Origin: a virus | Length of the DNA stretch: 41,145 bases | Reading direction: 5' to 3' (one strand) | Virus record (IMG/VR): IMGVR_UViG_3300009553_000007 | Span: 1 to 41,145 of that record | Notes under the pieces: generated by a model | Databases searched by the model: none | The model's input: only the letters and a program-made list of their open reading frames with translations | Told to the model about the DNA's origin: nothing | Translations under genes and position numbers: made by a program | Shown: one piece after another, positions 8,775 through 41,145 of the stretch | Position numbering within the stretch: position 1 is the stretch's first letter | How the letters are laid out: every line of letters starts with the position of its first letter

Positions 8775-9089
8775 ATGACCGTCGCCGCGCGAATCACTGC
8801 TGACCTCGCGAAATTCTTCAACACAGGAGATTTCGCGACCGCAGTTTCGTACACGCCGGCGTCCGCTGCAGCTCGCAGCATCAACGTTCAGTGGTACGAG
8901 CCGTATGAGTATTCGGCGCCGGCGGAGATCCCATTTGAGAACAGCGGTCCGGCTGTGCTCGCGCGCACATCGGATGTGAGCGCGGCCAAACAACGCGAGA
9001 CCATCGTCAAGACCGCCGTCACGTACTACGTCATCGCCGTCCACCCGACTGGCGACGGCACAACGTTCCTGTTGCTCAGCAAACAGTGA
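8775..9089 (+). CDS. Head-tail joining protein, gpFII/attachment-like (104 aa)
   Basis: The ATG at 8775 was chosen because upstream in-frame sequence is repeat DNA. The protein runs LAKFFNTGDFATAVSYTP, then a beta-rich middle and YYVIAVHPTGDGTTFLLLSKQ. The order FF..GDFA..V.Y, a middle with a variable loop, and a final Y.V....DG..T..LL strand matches small head-tail attachment proteins (lambda gpFII-like). The position after head genes and before tail genes agrees. The assignment is moderate. Confidence 0.65.
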   Translation: MTVAARITADLAKFFNTGDFATAVSYTPASAAARSINVQWYEPYEYSAPAEIPFENSGPAVLARTSDVSAAKQRETIVKTAVTYYVIAVHPTGDGTTFLLLSKQ

Positions 9090-26245: not shown

Positions 26246-26539
26246 ATGAACGACACGACATTACCAGCCGCCAGCGCCCCAACCGGCGATCGCGAGCCAT
26301 CCCACTTCCGCATACGCATCACCCCGAACATTGACACCGGTCATTTGCTGCAAGCCGTCATCCTTGTCAGCACCGTTGTCTGGTTCAGCGCCGGCCTCGA
26401 TAAACGGATCGCGCTCCTGGAAGCGCAGAACCAACGCAACGCCGGCGTCCTTGAGAACCTGGTCCGGACCCAGGAAGTCCTGACGCAAAACAACACTCGA
26501 TTGACCACCTTGATCGAAGAGCGCTTCCGCCGGCCATGA
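26246..26539 (+). CDS. Membrane protein with coiled-coil end (97 aa), lysis-cassette candidate
   Basis: Residues about 33-50 (GHLLQAVILVSTVVWFSAGL) form one transmembrane helix, followed by a coiled coil (DKRIALLEAQNQRNAGVLEN) and a basic end. A short N-terminus, one membrane helix and a periplasmic or cytoplasmic coil fit a holin-like or inner-membrane spanin-like protein. The stop overlaps the start of the lipoprotein gene (ATGA), so the two products may work as a pair. The function is inferred from topology and position only. Confidence 0.55.
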   Translation: MNDTTLPAASAPTGDREPSHFRIRITPNIDTGHLLQAVILVSTVVWFSAGLDKRIALLEAQNQRNAGVLENLVRTQEVLTQNNTRLTTLIEERFRRP

Positions 26540-26612
26540 TCACGCTTCACGCTTCACGCTTCACGCTCCTGGCCCTTTGCCCCTTGCTCTTTGCCCTCTG
26601 CGCGTCGGGCTG
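26536..26612 (+). repeat. Tandem CACGCTT heptads and CTTTGCCC units coding for a signal peptide
   Basis: ATCACGCTTCACGCTTCACG is continued by CTTCACGCTCCTGGCCCTTTG and CCCCTTGCTCTTTGCCCTC. Elsewhere these words are untranslated leaders. Here they encode SRFTLLALCPLLFALCASGC. Confidence 0.75.
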
Positions 26613-27339
26613 CACACGTTTCGCCGCGCGGCAGAAAGCTGCTGTCACACGGGTAGCCGTCACCGAGACAAAGCTGACCGAAGAGATCCGCGCCAATACG
26701 ACCGCTGCGGTGGACACGTTAGTCCTCGCTCCGACCAACCGTCACACGACCCTCGCGCTCGATTTCACCAAGCGCTCTCAGCTCATGTTAGGGATGCCTG
26801 TTGAGCGCATCGATGTCGAAGCCATCTTACGCGACGAACGCGCCGCCCTCACGCTTCACCAGGTCCGCGCCGAACACCAAGCCGAGCTGGTTAAAGAACG
26901 GGTTAATGCTGCCAACGAACTTGCCAAGGCAAATGACAAGCTCGCTGAACTCGGCCGCCAGGCGGAGGCCGCGAACAACGCCAGCCTGGTCAAACGCATT
27001 TACGTGCGGCTTGGGCTTTTGGGATCCATTGCGGCTGTGGTGGCTGCGTGCGTCTTTTTTCCAGTCCTCATCCCTATCTTTGGCCAGCTCCTGGGCTGGC
27101 TTGTGAGCAAAGTTCCCAAGCTCGCCGGCGCGCTCGGTGTTGTGAGCAAGAGCGCTTTTGACTCCGTCGTCAAAGGAGTCGGCGCCGTGCGGACCTCCCT
27201 TAAAGAGCGAGCTTCGACCAGCGATCGACTTTTGGGCGACACAGAAATGCTCAAGCTTGTTGACGACGAACTGTTGAAATCCACCGACGCCAGCGATCGG
27301 AAGCTCATCGAATCCCGTCGCGCGGTCCTTGCGGTATGA
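26536..27339 (+). CDS. Lipoprotein with membrane segment (267 aa), spanin-like candidate
   Basis: The N-terminus is a lipoprotein signal with lipobox LCASGC (Cys26). Residues about 45-150 are helical or coiled coil (TKLTEEIRANTTAAV, VKERVNAANELAKANDKLAE). Residues about 158-190 are hydrophobic (GSIAAVVAACVFFPVLIPIF), followed by a helical basic C-terminus of about 75 aa. Outer-membrane anchoring at one end and a membrane helix later resembles single-protein spanins, though the C-terminal extension is unusual. Bases 26536-26610, which code for the signal peptide, consist of CACGCTT and CCTTTGCCCCTTGCTC repeats. The ATGA overlap with the gene before it supports the start. Confidence 0.62.
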   Translation: MITLHASRFTLLALCPLLFALCASGCTRFAARQKAAVTRVAVTETKLTEEIRANTTAAVDTLVLAPTNRHTTLALDFTKRSQLMLGMPVERIDVEAILRDERAALTLHQVRAEHQAELVKERVNAANELAKANDKLAELGRQAEAANNASLVKRIYVRLGLLGSIAAVVAACVFFPVLIPIFGQLLGWLVSKVPKLAGALGVVSKSAFDSVVKGVGAVRTSLKERASTSDRLLGDTEMLKLVDDELLKSTDASDRKLIESRRAVLAV

Positions 27340-28456: not shown

Positions 28457-29650
28457 CTACCGAAATTTCAAAGGGAGCACGTTTTGTGTGACGGTTTTGG
28501 GACGAATTTCGAACCACTTTAACGCCTCGCCAGGCGTCGTCAGCTCCAGGTAGTAGCGATGGATCATCCCGGGGCTGTTGCCCGCTTCCAGAGCCACTTG
28601 CGCCACATTCTGCGTTGCTGCCACGCGATAGCTGATGAACGAGTCTCGGAGCGCGTTCCGGCTCCAACGCAGCCCCAGGCGCCGCGCCAGGTTGCACTTC
28701 CCCATCGAGAGATTCGCATAATCGCACACCCGGCCGCTCGCCTGGCTCCATGGCTTGAGCCAGTCCACCAGGTTATCGAGGATAGGGACAGTCCGTTGCC
28801 TTCGCGTCTTTGTGACTTCTTCGCGTAAGTAGATGTACCCCTTCTCCCATTTGAAATCCGTCCAATTGAGCCGCAACACTTCCTCGCTCCGCAACCCGGC
28901 AAACGCGGAGATCGCCAGCGCCGGCAACAACCGCTCACTCGCCCCGGAAAGGATCATCGACATTTGGTGCGGAGTGAAAATCGTGATCGCTCGATGGCGC
29001 AGTTTGACCAGCTCGATCCCAGCCACGCAATCTTCCGTCACGTACTTCCGGCCCAGCGCGAATTTGTAGAGCGCGGCCAGTGCCCCCCTGAAATTGTTGC
29101 GCGTCCGCGCGTTGCCATTCAGCGTGCCGAGCCACTCTTGCAGATCGGCCGTCGTCAACCGGTTGATCGGGCAATGGAACGCCTTTACCAGGCGGGCCAG
29201 GCGCAACCGAAAATCACGCACGTAATACGGGCTCAGCTCCTGTTGTGCTTTATCCGCGAGGAATTCCGTCACTACATCCGCCAGCAACGGGCTGTTAGCC
29301 GGCGCGAGCTTTTGCGCCGCGGTCCACCGGGCGCGCTCTTCGTACGCCACCTCGATCAGCGTCTTGCCCGTCGGCTGCAATACCAAAAGCGCCTGCTCGA
29401 GCTCGATCGCTTGGGCTTCCGTGAGCCGATGCTTGGCGCTCGCTCCATTGCACATGGCCACCGCGCGTTCGTTCGCCCAGAGCAACGCCTTAACCTTTTT
29501 CGTGAACTTTTTGCGGTGAATCTTGCCCCCGAAACGGTCCCGCACTTCCCATCGCTTCTTCCCCCCCCATGGCACGCAATACATCTTCACCCGCACATTG
29601 CCCACGCGAATGACAACAGGGCTTGTGGCTTGCGTAGCGGGTGGCTTCAT
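28457..29650 (-). CDS. int: Tyrosine recombinase (phage integrase)
   Basis: The 397-aa protein has an N-terminal arm-binding region (to about 75; KKRWEVRDRFGGKIHRKKFT), a SAM-like core-binding domain (about 115-205) and a catalytic domain. Visible catalytic residues are Arg254 (AGLRSEEVLRL), Lys281 (EEVTKTRRQRTVPI), Arg335 and Tyr366 or Tyr367 (IHRYY). Where the family usually has His-x-x-Arg and a second His/Trp, this protein has Asn332 (RNALRDSF) and Asn358 (AGNSP). The gene is the last of the lysogeny operon before attP. Its start overlaps the stop of the gene upstream (ATGA). It inserts and excises the prophage. Confidence 0.92.
   Translation of the reverse strand: MKPPATQATSPVVIRVGNVRVKMYCVPWGGKKRWEVRDRFGGKIHRKKFTKKVKALLWANERAVAMCNGASAKHRLTEAQAIELEQALLVLQPTGKTLIEVAYEERARWTAAQKLAPANSPLLADVVTEFLADKAQQELSPYYVRDFRLRLARLVKAFHCPINRLTTADLQEWLGTLNGNARTRNNFRGALAALYKFALGRKYVTEDCVAGIELVKLRHRAITIFTPHQMSMILSGASERLLPALAISAFAGLRSEEVLRLNWTDFKWEKGYIYLREEVTKTRRQRTVPILDNLVDWLKPWSQASGRVCDYANLSMGKCNLARRLGLRWSRNALRDSFISYRVAATQNVAQVALEAGNSPGMIHRYYLELTTPGEALKWFEIRPKTVTQNVLPLKFR
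28490..28505. promoter_or_regulatory. Arm-type repeat GACGGTTTTGGGACGA, copy 2
   Basis: This is the identical 16-bp partner of 28271-28286. It overlaps the codons for the last residues of the integrase. Confidence 0.5.
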
Positions 29651-29895
29651 GGCGCTGGAATCATTTCGCGGACACCAGTTCCAAGATGCCGGCCAGCGAG
29701 TGCCAGAAGCATCGTCTCATCGCTCGTCTGCGCGTGCCTCATTAGAGGTTTCGCCGTATCTAGCCAGAGATCGGGCGCCATCCCTTTTGCGCCACACGAA
29801 CAATCCCATCCGACCGCGCACTCTTTTCGGCAGTACGGACAAAGCCAGTTGCCATTCAGAACCGGGCTCGGGCCTTTCGTAGCGTCTGGCTTCAT
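29647..29895 (-). CDS. Zinc-ribbon protein (82 aa)
   Basis: The start at 29895 overlaps the upstream stop (ATGA). The ORF could be extended to 29949, but this would overlap a plausible gene. The motif LCPYCRKECAVGWDCSCG has paired Cys residues. The C-terminal part (SDETMLLALAGRHLGTGV) is helical. It may be a small DNA- or protein-binding factor of the lysogeny operon. The function is unknown. Confidence 0.55.
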   Translation of the reverse strand: MKPDATKGPSPVLNGNWLCPYCRKECAVGWDCSCGAKGMAPDLWLDTAKPLMRHAQTSDETMLLALAGRHLGTGVREMIPAP

Positions 29896-30083
29896 TTTGA
29901 AGCTGTCTTGCAGCGCTTGCATCTCCGCCCGGTTGCGTCGTTGAACCAATCAGCCATCCGAAGTCCGCACATCGTCGTTACCTCGGAATTCCTGTGCATC
30001 GACCGAACGTTGTGTGAGATCCCTCCCATCGTTCTTGCTGCAGCGACGTAGCGAAGGTTTGGGTATTTGTCCGTGGTCGTCAT
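29892..30083 (-). CDS. Small Cys-rich phage protein (63 aa)
   Basis: The motif pattern is EVTTMCGLRMADWF, then GRRCKRCK. The combination T.CG ... C.RC is common among small zinc-binding phage proteins. Both ends overlap neighbouring genes by four bases, which supports its reality. Confidence 0.55.
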   Translation of the reverse strand: MTTTDKYPNLRYVAAARTMGGISHNVRSMHRNSEVTTMCGLRMADWFNDATGRRCKRCKTASK

Positions 30084-30463
30084 GGGAAGATTATTTTGAA
30101 AGGCACATCCGATCCCGGTTTGTCCACCACACCCGCCATCTTTGGCTGGCTTTTGGTCGCTGCGCCTGGATCGGCCGCCTCGTGCAGGACGCAGCCGAAC
30201 TGTTCACCCGTCAGCAGCGACGCCGTATAATTGCTGCCATCGACAACGGCCGCGGCGTTGATCTCTGGCCGTTGGTAAAAGACAATCTTTGGGTGTTTGC
30301 AGTGACGCACGACGTGCCCCCACTTCGCCCTGATCATCTCCTCGGTGGCGTCGTAGTCTTTATCGAAAGTTGCCGGGTCTGGCGGATTTACGATGTCGTC
30401 GTAACCATCGTCTTTTTCGCGCTGCCAGTGCTTGCAGGTTTTGCAGAGGCGCTCGTAGCTCAT
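30080..30463 (-). CDS. Zinc-binding phage protein (127 aa)
   Basis: The protein begins MSYERLCKTCKHWQREKDDG and later has VVRHCKHPKIVFYQRPE and LLTGEQFGCVLHEAA. The order CxTCKHW, CxHP and FGCVxHE is a known phage/host small zinc-protein pattern. The role is unknown. It overlaps the next gene by four bases and is preceded by the lipoprotein gene. Confidence 0.65.
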   Translation of the reverse strand: MSYERLCKTCKHWQREKDDGYDDIVNPPDPATFDKDYDATEEMIRAKWGHVVRHCKHPKIVFYQRPEINAAAVVDGSNYTASLLTGEQFGCVLHEAADPGAATKSQPKMAGVVDKPGSDVPFKIIFP

Positions 30464-30499: not shown

Positions 30500-30955
30500 C
30501 TAGCCCTCCACTTTCCCGCCCACAGCTTTTGCCACTCGCTCCGCGACGCCGCGAAACTCCGCTTTGATCTTGGGGATCTCATTTGCTGGCGGCCAAGCGC
30601 CATAGGTCAGTTCAGGCCCGAGCTGGAAATCGAGCGAGATTGTGTCGGAAACGACGAGGATTTTGAGAGTGCATTCGGCGTATTGGAGCACCCCAGCCAC
30701 GCGATACGTCACAAGCGGCTTCAAAAGGAACGTTCCACTCTCCGGCTGCCGCAATTTGAGAACCCGTGGCAAATCCCACGGAGCCTCAGCCAAGGCCAGC
30801 TCGACATGATTAAAAGCGTCTGCCTTGGGCTCGGTGTGCTTGACCATCGCGTGATAATTCCTTTCCGCCGGCGTGATACTCAGACGATTTGCCGAGGCAC
30901 AGCCCGTCAGAGCGGCAGCGAGCAATGCCAGTTGCAGATATTTGGTGATTTTCAC
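30500..30955 (-). CDS. Lipoprotein expressed from the lysogeny operon (151 aa)
   Basis: The signal peptide MKITKYLQLALLAAALTGCA contains the lipobox LTGC (Cys19). The mature part is about 130 aa, beta-rich (GTFLLKPLVTYRVAGVLQYA, CTLKILVVSDTISLDFQL). Being in the same operon as the integrase and the RHH genes, it is likely to be made in the prophage state. It may therefore be a surface-exclusion or conversion protein. The start overlaps the end of the RHH gene (ATGA). Confidence 0.65.
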   Translation of the reverse strand: MKITKYLQLALLAAALTGCASANRLSITPAERNYHAMVKHTEPKADAFNHVELALAEAPWDLPRVLKLRQPESGTFLLKPLVTYRVAGVLQYAECTLKILVVSDTISLDFQLGPELTYGAWPPANEIPKIKAEFRGVAERVAKAVGGKVEG

Positions 30956-31206
30956 GGTTTTATGGTGGAACTGTTTTTTGGAGCGACTCGGTAAGTTACC
31001 GGCGGGTCGGTGGCAAAGCCTTGCTCTTGGCTTTCTTTTGCTTCAGAGGATTCTGGCGGTAAATGCAGCGCGTGAGGGTTGCAGCCAGTCACATCGCCCT
31101 CGATAAGGGCCTGCACATAGTGCGAAAACTTCTTATACTTCAATTTGCGCCATCGCACGTCGGCTTTTTGTAGAAGTTCCGTCTCGGCACTGATCGTTCT
31201 CCTCAT
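30952..31206 (-). CDS. Ribbon-helix-helix protein A (84 aa)
   Basis: The ATG at 31206 is used; a TTG at 31215 would overlap the upstream stop. MRRTISAETELLQKADVRWR, then KKFSHYVQALIEGDV fits an RHH DNA-binding fold: a strand (RRTIS), helix, turn with F.HYVQALI, and helix. It is a paralogue of the next gene and of the + strand gene at 31483 (shared TIS/TVS, FS.YV..LI..D). The C-terminal 40 aa are Pro/Ser-rich. It is probably a repressor of the divergent switch. Confidence 0.65.
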   Translation of the reverse strand: MRRTISAETELLQKADVRWRKLKYKKFSHYVQALIEGDVTGCNPHALHLPPESSEAKESQEQGFATDPPVTYRVAPKNSSTIKP

Positions 31207-31211
31207 CGCCT

Positions 31212-31388
31212 TCAAGCTCTAGCTTGCTCCTGTTGGGTGTCTTTACGAATCAGTAACTGCACGTAGTCCGAGAACGTCGTCAGCTTGTACTGACGCTGCC
31301 GTGTTCTGGCTTCGCCGAGCATCATTCCAGGCATGCTCACCGTCTTCCGTACAGCCCTCTCACCGTCCTTTTTATCCGGGTTAGTCAT
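31212..31388 (-). CDS. Ribbon-helix-helix protein B (58 aa)
   Basis: Translation gives MTNPDKKDGERAVRKTVSMP, a helix with LGEARTRQRQYKLTTFSDYV and QLLIRKDTQQEQARA. The strand KTVSM and the TFSDYVQLLIRKD helix match proteins A and C. It is the first gene of the minus-strand operon, starting 94 bases from the divergent gene. A TATAAT -10 hexamer at 31433-31438 (minus strand) precedes it. Its mRNA leader holds two of the TACTYTTT repeats. Confidence 0.65.
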   Translation of the reverse strand: MTNPDKKDGERAVRKTVSMPGMMLGEARTRQRQYKLTTFSDYVQLLIRKDTQQEQARA

Positions 31389-31398
31389 ATAGCTTTCT

Positions 31399-31472
31399 TA
31401 CTTTTTCCTACTCTTTATGCAGACGCAAGTAAATTATAGGATTGACAGCTTTGTTACAAAATCATACTTTTT
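31399..31472. promoter_or_regulatory. Divergent switch: two promoters and TACTTTTT operator-like repeats
   Basis: The + strand has TTGACA (31442-31447), a 17-base spacer and TACTTT (31465-31470) ahead of the gene at 31483. The minus strand has a consensus TATAAT at 31433-31438 for the gene at 31388. TACTTTTT occurs at 31399 and 31465, and TACTCTTT at 31409, exactly 10 bases after the first. RHH proteins bind tandem sites about one helical turn apart, so these are candidate operators. The 94-bp gap is markedly AT-rich. Confidence 0.65.
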
Positions 31473-31482
31473 AAGAGAACGT

Positions 31483-31662
31483 ATGAAATCAAACTCCAAA
31501 CCCGTCAGGATCAAGGGGACCGAAAAGCGCACTATCAGCGGTTCGCCCGAATTGTTCGCCAAGGCCGATGACAAAATGAATCGCCTCAGCATTGGCAATT
31601 TTTCGGAATATGTTCGCCAATTGATCATCCGCGACGTTGACCAATCCAAGCAAGCCGCCTGA
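31483..31662 (+). CDS. Ribbon-helix-helix protein C (59 aa)
   Basis: The ATG at 31483 is preferred because the promoter lies in the longer upstream ORF. RIKGTEKRTISGSPELFAKA, then NRLSIGNFSEYVRQLIIRDV is an RHH fold: strand KRTIS, helix, SIGNF.EYVRQLI. It is the first gene of the early operon, opposite genes A and B. It may be the Cro-like or antirepressor-like side of the switch. A weak Shine-Dalgarno sequence (AAGAGAA) is present. Confidence 0.68.
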   Translation: MKSNSKPVRIKGTEKRTISGSPELFAKADDKMNRLSIGNFSEYVRQLIIRDVDQSKQAA

Positions 31663-31675
31663 AGCCCCTCCCCCG

Positions 31676-31897
31676 ATGAAGCCCTATCTCACCATTGACG
31701 ACGCGGTCGAGATGCTGAGGCCTGAATCGGAGCGAGAGCGCGCGAGTTTGAAGCGCGAGTTAACACGAGCCATCGCGGCCGGCGCGCTGGCGTATATGAA
31801 CCCCACCGGCAAACTGGTCCGAATCCACACCGAGGATTTTGACGACTATTGTCGGCGTCACACCATCAAAGCCTGGTCCCACGAGAAAGCCGCCTGA
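31676..31897 (+). CDS. Excisionase-like winged-helix DNA-binding protein (73 aa)
   Basis: The ATG at 31676 is preferred over TTG 31637. MKPYLTIDDAVEML, then KRELTRAIAAGALAYMNPTG and LVRIHTEDFDDYCRRHTIKA follows the plan of excisionase/AlpA-type proteins: a helix with LT..DA, an RAI..GAL recognition helix, a wing with PTGK.VRI, and DF..Y. A role in excision or early control is likely. The stop overlaps the next start (TGATG). Confidence 0.65.
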   Translation: MKPYLTIDDAVEMLRPESERERASLKRELTRAIAAGALAYMNPTGKLVRIHTEDFDDYCRRHTIKAWSHEKAA

Positions 31898-33986: not shown

Positions 33987-34225
33987 GCGACGACGTGGAA
34001 ATCCTCAAGTGCTGCATTTGCACTCAGCCGATTCGGATCTATCCGAAGCGCCGCAAGAAAGTTATCGAAGCCACCAAAGTCAACGGGGACGGGCCTTACT
34101 GCAATCTCTGTCTGCACTTTGAAATGGCTTCACGCTACGCAGCCGCACGCGGATACGTGTCGCTCCCGCACGCAGTCCGGGATTTCGTACGCAAAAAGGA
34201 AACGCGGATCTACGCCACGTCATGA
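33983..34225 (+). CDS. Zinc-ribbon early protein (80 aa)
   Basis: The ATG at 33983 has a strong Shine-Dalgarno sequence (GGAGGT, seven bases upstream) and overlaps the previous stop. LKCCICTQPIRIYPKRRKKV, then GPYCNLCLHFEMASRY shows two CxxC pairs 27-35 residues apart and a basic linker. It is likely nucleic-acid- or protein-binding. The stop overlaps the radical SAM start. Confidence 0.6.
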   Translation: MSDDVEILKCCICTQPIRIYPKRRKKVIEATKVNGDGPYCNLCLHFEMASRYAAARGYVSLPHAVRDFVRKKETRIYATS

Positions 34226-35307
34226 ATCGGCCAGAACCATCTCTACGCTCCGACGCTGACAACGCTGATACGCTCCAACGCTCCCTAACCGGCCGCTGGC
34301 GAATTCCCGTCACCATTGCTGACAACCATTTCGTTTACAAATCCCTGTCCAACTGGTCCTGCAACATCGCTGTTGGATGTGTGCACGGCTGCCGCTTCTG
34401 TTATGTGCCCAGCAGCTCCACGAACAAAATGCGCCATCCCCTCGCTGATCTCGGCGTTTCGGATCCCGACGCGCAATGGGGCGATTACGCGTTTGTGCGC
34501 GAATGGGACGAACACGCTTTCCTGCTGTCATTGCAGCGCGCCGAGCACACGCCCGTTGAGAATCTGCGGCCGCTCGGTGGCAATCGCGCCGTAATCTTTT
34601 GCTCCACGACAGACCCGTACCAGGTCACGAACGACACCGCGTGGAATTTCCATCGCAAACTGATCGTCCGACGCGCGCTCGAATTGATCCGCGATCGCTC
34701 CACCCTCAACGTCCGCATCCTCACGCGCGGACCGCTGGCCCGGCAAGACTTCGAATTGTTCGGCACGTTCGGTCATCGGCTGATGTTCGGGATGAGCTTG
34801 CCCACGCTCTCGAACAGACTCGCCAAGATTTACGAGCCTGGCGCGCCGTCACCATTCAAGCGGTTCGAGACCTTGCAGCTCGCCCGCGACTGCGGCCTCA
34901 ACATTTTCGTGGCTATGGCGCCGACGTATCCGGAGTGCGACATGGACGATCTGCGCAACACGCTCCAGAAAATCGCTGAGCTGGATCCACTCACAGTATT
35001 TCACGAGCCCATCAACATCCGCGCGGACAACGTCGAGCGCATCCGCAGTCACGCCGCGGCGCTCGGAGAGAAGGTCCACACGGAGGTGTTTCGCACGCAC
35101 GAATCGTGGCGCGGTTACGCGCTTGGACAGATGGGCATGGTGCAACTATTGGCCGCGCAGTGTGGGCTAAGCGCGCGCTTGCATCTCTGGCCGGACAAGT
35201 CCCTCGAGCGCGGCGCCACGCCGGCGTTCCGCTATTGGCTCAACGACTGTTGGTCGCGCGTCAGTGAATGGCCACAAGAATGCCACAAGAATGCCACAAG
35301 AATGTGA
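34222..35307 (+). CDS. Radical SAM protein, spore photoproduct lyase-like (361 aa)
   Basis: SCNIAVGCVHGCRFCYVPSS carries the 4Fe-4S motif C53-x3-C57-x2-C60 of radical SAM enzymes. The surrounding NWSCNIAVGC.HGCRFCY, FCSTTDPYQ, LNVRILTRGPLARQDFELF and AMAPTYPECDMDDL are typical of the SPL-like/Rv2578c-like branch. That branch contains the DNA photoproduct repair enzyme and many uncharacterised proteins. Residues 10-20 come from CGCTCCGACGCTGACAACGC-type repeats. The gene is coupled to both neighbours (ATGA at the start, TGTGA at the end). It may repair or modify DNA or a protein, which cannot be decided from sequence. Confidence 0.82.
   Translation: MNRPEPSLRSDADNADTLQRSLTGRWRIPVTIADNHFVYKSLSNWSCNIAVGCVHGCRFCYVPSSSTNKMRHPLADLGVSDPDAQWGDYAFVREWDEHAFLLSLQRAEHTPVENLRPLGGNRAVIFCSTTDPYQVTNDTAWNFHRKLIVRRALELIRDRSTLNVRILTRGPLARQDFELFGTFGHRLMFGMSLPTLSNRLAKIYEPGAPSPFKRFETLQLARDCGLNIFVAMAPTYPECDMDDLRNTLQKIAELDPLTVFHEPINIRADNVERIRSHAAALGEKVHTEVFRTHESWRGYALGQMGMVQLLAAQCGLSARLHLWPDKSLERGATPAFRYWLNDCWSRVSEWPQECHKNATRM
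35271..35303 (+). repeat. Three tandem 11-bp repeats at the end of the radical SAM gene
   Basis: The unit GCCACAAGAAT is repeated exactly three times at 35271, 35282 and 35293. It covers the last codons before the stop at 35305. Since 11 is not a multiple of three, one unit more or less would shift the frame of the C-terminus and change the coupling with the GTG at 35304. Confidence 0.8.
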
Positions 35308-40354: not shown

Positions 40355-41145
40355 TTGACGCTTTCAAAACTCTTCCGTCTCTTCGAGCCACGCGAACAGC
40401 TCACCGTCACGCAATGGGCCGATCGTTACCGCTGGTTATCCAAAGAAGCCCACAGCACCGGCGGCAAATACGACAGCGCCTTCGCGCCATTCCAACGCGA
40501 GCCGATGGATAGCGCCAACGACTGCACCGTTACGAAGACCGTCCTCATGTTTGCCAGCCAGCTCACCGGCAAAACAGAAATCGCCAACAACGTTATTGGG
40601 TTTCACATCGATTGGCGGCCGTCCCCGATCCTTGTAGTCCAGCCCACGCAGAAACCGATGGGCGAGGCCTGGAGCAAAGACCGGCTCGTGCCAATGATCC
40701 GCGACACGCCGCGGTTAAAAGGATTGGTGGCCGGCGCCAAGAGTCGCGACAGCGGAAATACCATCTTCCACAAAAGCTTTCCTGGCGGACACGTCTCGAT
40801 CGGCGGAGCCAACTCCCCGAGCAACCTGGCATCGCGCCCGATCCGCGTTGTGATACTGGATGAAGTAGATCGTTACCCCGTGACCGCCGGCAAAGAAGGC
40901 AACCCGTGTGAATTGGCCATCAAGCGGACCGAGACATTTCCAGACGCCGTCGTTTTCGAAATCGGATCGCCAACTATCAAAGGCGCCTCGCGCATCGCTT
41001 CCAGTTTCGAGGCCAGCGACAAGCGGTACTTCTTCGTGCCCTGCCCTAAGTGCAGTTATTTCCAGACCTTGAAATGGTGCAATGTCCTGTTTTCCTTTCC
41101 AATCCTGGGTGGAACGGGTGACCCGCCTGGAAGCTCCCCGGCCAC
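40355..41145 (+). CDS. Terminase large subunit, GpA family (N-terminal ATPase part; continues at 1-1408)
   Basis: The frame is closed by the TAA at 40310, and the first usable codon is TTG 40355; no ATG lies between it and conserved sequence. The protein starts MTLSKLFRLFEPREQLTVTQ, WADRYRWLSKEAHSTGGKY, the usual GpA beginning. Residues 68-75 (SQLTGKTE) are the Walker A-like motif and VVILDEVDRYP (Asp169, Glu170) is Walker B. SIGGANSPSNLASRP is the conserved segment before it. The last 123 bases repeat the first 123 of the window. With positions 1-1408 the full length is 691 aa. Confidence 0.93.
   Translation, partial: MTLSKLFRLFEPREQLTVTQWADRYRWLSKEAHSTGGKYDSAFAPFQREPMDSANDCTVTKTVLMFASQLTGKTEIANNVIGFHIDWRPSPILVVQPTQKPMGEAWSKDRLVPMIRDTPRLKGLVAGAKSRDSGNTIFHKSFPGGHVSIGGANSPSNLASRPIRVVILDEVDRYPVTAGKEGNPCELAIKRTETFPDAVVFEIGSPTIKGASRIASSFEASDKRYFFVPCPKCSYFQTLKWCNVLFSFPILGGTGDPPGSSPA
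41023..41145. repeat. Terminal direct repeat, right copy
   Basis: This is identical to 1-123. The genome closes by joining 41022 to 1. Confidence 0.95.

Follow-up and report, generated by a model that had tools for sequence, protein, structure and literature searches.

In textbook examples, the lysogeny switch of a bacterial tailed phage is built from HTH repressors, which are what annotation tools look for, and the locus described here raises the question of whether a temperate phage might instead run such a switch with small ribbon-helix-helix (RHH) proteins. The stretch of DNA that we analysed, referred to as the window, is the 41,145-nt IMG/VR virus record IMGVR_UViG_3300009553_000007. 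Its positions 1-123 and 41023-41145 form an exact 123-bp terminal repeat, and TerL is split over the two ends, its ATPase part lying at 40355-41143 and its nuclease part at 2-1408, from which we conclude that the assembly is circular and complete at about 41.0 kb. The window carries a lambda-type terminase, a portal, a fused protease-capsid, tail genes and an integrase, and is the complete genome of a temperate tailed phage. Relatives of the integrase C-terminus come almost exclusively from Verrucomicrobiota, many of them from Limisphaerales/subdivision 3, which makes this phylum the likely host group. The viral contigs searched yielded no sister phage, no relatives of the RHH proteins and no full-length relatives of the integrase; the matches there were all distant, comprising TerL, one capsid and integrase C-termini. 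A tblastn search of the RHH proteins against isolated phages returned matches at chance level only.

The first-pass annotation had placed two RHH genes at the head of a minus-strand lysogeny module and a third at the head of a divergent early operon, and the open reading frames agree with this layout (Table 1). RHH2 differs in architecture, consisting of an RHH domain followed by a tail of about 45 aa, and an overlapping TTG at 31215 would lengthen it to 87 aa from the 84 aa that start at the ATG at 31206.

Table 1. Coordinates of the features at the divergent junction and in the adjoining modules (window positions)
Feature	Position	Strand	Details
Tyrosine integrase	28457-29650	-	Distal gene of the lysogeny module; Pfam Phage_integrase 1e-9, PHROG integrase 7e-31
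Putative lipoprotein	30500-30955	-	Lysogeny module; LTGC lipobox; ORF
RHH2	30952-31206	-	84 aa from ATG; second gene of the lysogeny module; ORF
RHH1	31212-31388	-	58 aa; first gene of the lysogeny (integrase) module; ORF
Divergent control region	31389-31482	.	94 bp, 31% GC; between the start codons of RHH1 and RHH3
Tandem candidate operator	31399-31416	+	TACTTTTT-CC-TACTCTTT; 10-bp spacing; leader of the minus operon
Presumed leftward (lysogeny) promoter	31433-31459	-	TTGTAA, 15 nt, TATAAT (31438-31433); weak; by eye
Presumed rightward (early) promoter	31442-31470	+	TTGACA (31442-31447), 17 nt, TACTTT; weak; by eye
Third candidate site	31465-31472	+	TACTTTTT; overlaps the presumed rightward -10; putative function
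RHH3	31483-31662	+	59 aa; first gene of the divergent early operon (Cro position); ORF
HTH_17 protein, excisionase/Apl-like	31676-31897	+	73 aa; Pfam HTH_17 E 3.9e-4, below the curated cut-off

Judged by their sequences, RHH1, RHH2 and RHH3 are homologous to one another: BLASTP, with each value from a single pairwise comparison, gives E-values of 8e-9 (RHH1-RHH2), 5e-6 (RHH1-RHH3) and 1e-9 (RHH2-RHH3), and the pairwise similarities lie well over chance (shuffle Z about 10-17), RHH1-RHH3 being the weakest pair. Of the two motifs first described as common to all three, the TIS/TVS strand holds (KTVS, RTIS and RTIS in RHH1, RHH2 and RHH3, respectively), whereas the YVQ helix is found in RHH1 (FSDYVQLLI) and RHH2 (FSHYVQALI) but reads YVR in RHH3 (FSEYVRQLI). 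The description of the genes as three duplicated paralogues is likewise borne out as regards homology but not as regards duplication inside the phage, since RHH2 is equally close to a host-chromosomal RHH family (L101, L098, L109; Z 13-21, as high as against RHH1 and RHH3). The tail of RHH2 contains the segment NPHALHLPP, which resembles GPHSITLPW of that chromosomal family.

Searches of Pfam and PHROG gave no family match for any of the three proteins, and none reached the curated cut-off of the named Pfam RHH families (RHH_1/CopG, Arc); therefore, the RHH assignment needs structure. We obtained AlphaFold (AF2) models of RHH1 (pLDDT 80.7, helices 21-33 and 39-57) and RHH3 (pLDDT 89.2, helices 22-35 and 40-58), both as monomers, the RHH strand forming only in the dimer. 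Comparison with the PDB by Foldseek returned mostly RHH proteins, namely NikR, MatP, CopG, Arc and AmrZ, all five of which were matched by RHH1, together with ParD2. The Foldseek E-values are weak (none at or below 0.001), as expected for only about 45 residues; the RHH3 model superposes on NikR with an rmsd of 1.0-1.4 Å and on CopG with one of 0.9 Å. Both models fit the plan of the fold superfamily, an N-terminal strand followed by two helices as in solved domains, so that the structure prediction put forward with the original proposal comes out in its favour, and RHH2 is placed among the RHH proteins by its homology to the other two. A phmmer search of the PDB with RHH1 gave nothing useful, and pairwise comparison of the window proteins with Arc gave no sequence signal (Z about 0).

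In CopG, the outward-facing strand residues are R4, T6 and T8. Alignment to CopG predicts the base-contact triads R14/T16/S18 in RHH1, R2/T4/S6 in RHH2 and K15/T17/S19 in RHH3. As this amounts to the same predicted triad (R/K, T, S) in each protein, the three are predicted to recognize overlapping operators, which in turn would allow CI/Cro-like competition or mixed dimers.

A profile of HTH_3 run over the six frames of the window gave no match; in other viral contigs searched, it found matches in six of eight, three of them above the curated cut-off. Pfam scans of 183 window ORFs (105 in the 27.3-41.1 kb part and 78 in the structural half) detected neither a repressor family nor an antirepressor family. 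The junction is therefore neither of the lambda type, with HTH_3 repressor genes at the divergence, nor of the P22 immI type, with an RHH pair and an antirepressor beside C2/Cro. The statement that no HTH homologue of CI or Cro is visible thus stands for HTH_3, CI and Cro, but it had overlooked an HTH_17 gene directly after RHH3, whose weakly matching product is the sole DNA-binding HTH protein found in the window. Its placement and family fit an excisionase or an Apl/Cox-like protein, and an excisionase is the likely identity.

Within the 94 bp between RHH1 and RHH3, TACTTTTT occurs at 31399 and 31465 and TACTCTTT at 31409. The spacing of 10 bp claimed for the repeats applies to the 31399/31409 pair only, in which the second copy is inexact, and not to the copy at 31465. 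The motif TACTNTTT, which was picked post hoc, is present three times, which did not happen in any of 3000 dinucleotide shuffles, and an unbiased test for 10-bp direct repeats gave p=0.044 for the window alone. As for the proposed divergent promoter pair, one candidate per strand can be found by eye, each with one perfect hexamer and a poor partner, but a consensus scan of the control region reported none, both falling below threshold. The two candidates overlap each other. We consider the RHH-based control region to be real and probably functional.

To look for the same arrangement elsewhere, we searched 388 Verrucomicrobiota genomes, and 320 from the G001 order, with a profile built from the trio and its first relatives. 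A second, divergent RHH gene was found with this window-derived profile at 9 of 42 matching loci, including two with weak candidate partners (L113 and L114). Clear divergent pairs are present at L125, L126, L176, L177, L178 and L124, as well as at L150 and L217, with intergenic regions of 73-122 bp. Within the phylum, at least four further contigs of phages or mobile elements carry such a pair. The closest in layout is a 41.9-kb phage contig (G631:C149, with L177 and L182-L184) that encodes a ParB-like protein, a DnaD-like loader, an internal virion protein and an integrase; its leftward integrase, lipoprotein and RHH genes, and its rightward RHH gene with an HTH_17 gene some genes further on, resemble the window, and its plus-strand RHH protein passes Pfam RHH_1 at 24.9 bits. 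The pair at L178 (G499:C262) lies beside TerL and capsid genes, that at L176 (G472:C147) has an integrase C-terminus on the strand of an RHH gene, and that at L125 (G346:C10) has a lipoprotein after the minus-strand RHH gene and an integrase nearby. The pairs at L124, L126 and L217 have chromosomal settings, so that the divergent RHH unit is not specific to phages. No RHH gene was found adjoining 80 verrucomicrobial integrase loci.

In a control with generic RHH_1 on 116 genomes, pairs facing apart within about 500 bp appeared, among the matches listed, only in G528:C166 and G514:C390; the comparison with the 9 of 42 profile loci is indicative only, because partner detection differs. The window-derived profile was too insensitive on generic RHH loci to act as a control itself. 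By eye, the divergent pair of G514:C390 (L218:6653-13341) lies between Mu-like genes (transposase, GPI protease). We also observed chromosomal RHH trios split two to one between the strands, as in the window, at L124:9757-10583 and L217:3655-4368.

The other loci served to test the 10-bp spacing first noted in the window, each being scored by its best 8-bp match at offset 10. Direct repeats at this offset were enriched in six non-window pairs (Fisher p=0.003) and in eight (Fisher p=0.006, a value reached by 0 of 200 shuffled sets), whereas spacings of 7-9 and 11-15 gave p=0.19-1.0 in the non-window pairs. Over seven loci including the window, and spacings of 6-21, only 10 stands out. Because the letters of the repeats differ between loci, the common feature of the pairs is spacing rather than sequence. 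As an operator common to the pairs, TACTTTTT was rejected: TACTTTT occurs in a palindrome at L125, and the motif is absent from L126, L176, L177, L178 and L124. At L177, the control region (8782-8871) contains the clear palindromes ATAATAATGGTTATTAT and ACGGAATATTATTCCGT in addition to its 10-bp repeat.

From these observations, we hypothesize, with rather more confidence than doubt, that the region is an RHH-based lysis-lysogeny switch of a Verrucomicrobiota temperate phage that takes the place of CI/Cro; this role is made more likely by the same layout at L177 and by the 10-bp repeats that other pairs have too. In this model, the leftward operon would supply the integrase together with RHH1 and RHH2, either or both of which would recognize short direct repeats separated by one helical turn, shutting the rightward early promoter via the site at 31465 and autoregulating their own promoter via the tandem site. 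RHH3 would act in a Cro-like manner on identical or overlapping sites, given that all three proteins have the same predicted contact triad, and the HTH_17 protein would serve as the likely excisionase. We infer the binding, repression and competition steps of this model. The arrangement resembles lambda CI/Cro in its presumed divergent promoters separating lysogeny from early genes, in having regulators first on both sides and in an excisionase-like gene nearby, and departs from it in that the regulators are RHH proteins and HTH_3 proteins were not found. A broader proposal, that temperate phages of Verrucomicrobiota, despite unrelated structural types, share a switch with RHH proteins on both sides, and that here three RHH proteins with the same triad compete or heterodimerize on one operator set, is more speculative, and we advance it only tentatively.

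Our best reading, by analogy, is that the switch would function like F55 of the archaeal virus SSV1, a 6.3-kDa RHH protein that keeps the virus lysogenic via tandem repeats (PMC5569661). The RHH fold and 10-bp repeats are present in the window; F55 is a very small RHH protein that takes the part of CI, with tandem repeats at the early promoters and at its own, as the model proposes for the window. F55, however, belongs to an archaeal fusellovirus and is a single RHH repressor, for which no divergent, Cro-like RHH partner is reported in the passage describing it (PMC5569661). The same source describes AvtR/gp30 of Acidianus virus AFV6 as an RHH regulator of its own gene and of a neighbouring predicted RHH gene; the window likewise has a putative RHH regulator gene next to another RHH gene, whereas AvtR is a fused tandem RHH protein of an archaeal filamentous virus (PMC5569661).

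Three other explanations have to be weighed. It is possible, but in our view unlikely, that the RHH proteins have a secondary regulatory role like that of P22 Arc and Mnt, with true immunity conferred by a repressor that went unrecognised among the products of the lysogeny or early module. Divergent HTH domains may escape HMM searches, and no Pfam or PHROG family could be assigned to 29647-29949, 29892-30083 and 30080-30463 or to several early ORFs. In P22, the main switch is HTH C2/Cro, and Arc and Mnt belong to immI, a separate, secondary immunity region beside ant that controls ant. The window trio is like Arc and Mnt in consisting of putative phage RHH repressors of about 50-80 aa, but its genes come first on either side of the integrase/early junction; they hold the CI/Cro position, as they do at L177, whose contig likewise has no HTH_3 match.

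We think it improbable that the control repeats are the sites of an Apl/Cox-like HTH_17 excisionase-regulator, with the RHH genes a lesser part of the system. One-turn direct repeats are compatible with cooperative RHH binding and also with Apl-type excisionases: between pR and pL of phage 186, Apl binds direct repeats spaced by one helical turn (PMC7498355). The repeats alone are therefore no pointer to RHH proteins. The window also resembles 186 Apl and P2 Cox in having a small HTH protein early in the rightward operon, directly after RHH3, and at L177 an HTH_17 gene again lies downstream of the plus-strand RHH gene. However, Apl works beside a CI repressor, whereas no CI was found here and the HTH_17 gene is preceded by an RHH gene; furthermore, the pair at L126 has a 10-bp repeat (p=0.015), yet its ORF list shows, by eye, no obvious HTH_17 neighbour. 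That RHH1, RHH2 and RHH3 are toxin-antitoxin antitoxins or plasmid-type partition proteins is very improbable: the RHH fold is very common among antitoxins and some RHH relatives match antitoxin models weakly, but RHH1 and RHH3 end within about 10 residues of the RHH domain, with no toxin-binding tail, the next genes encode another RHH protein, a lipoprotein and the HTH_17 protein, none of them toxin-like, and no ParA was found.

We found no tailed bacteriophage with an RHH main switch on both sides in the open-access literature, and an RHH-pair switch may represent a little-known route by which a virus chooses between dormancy and killing. If RHH pairs do run the switch in Verrucomicrobiota phages, temperate phages without an annotated CI would become classifiable by a divergent RHH pair beside the integrase, and a lysogeny fold of archaeal viruses would gain a bacterial counterpart. 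Comprising three proteins of 58-84 aa and a 94-bp stretch of DNA, the system is small and could be rebuilt with reporters.

Several further observations concern the neighbouring genes. In three mobile elements (the window, L177:8168-8479 and L125:8515-8880), the minus-strand RHH gene is followed by a gene for a short lipoprotein; these lipoproteins are candidate superinfection-exclusion proteins, a role that is possible for the one in the window. In the verrucomicrobial family to which the integrase belongs (28490-28684 on the minus strand, and L010-L014), the catalytic His of HxxR is apparently Asn (NALRDSFISYR), which is invariant in six aligned sequences. The early region contains a radical SAM protein (34222-35307; Pfam 3e-9, PHROG 4.9e-25). 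A 267-aa membrane-type protein of the window (26536-27339) has a close homologue (L178:9679-10452, E 6e-33) adjoining the divergent RHH pair of the G499 prophage.
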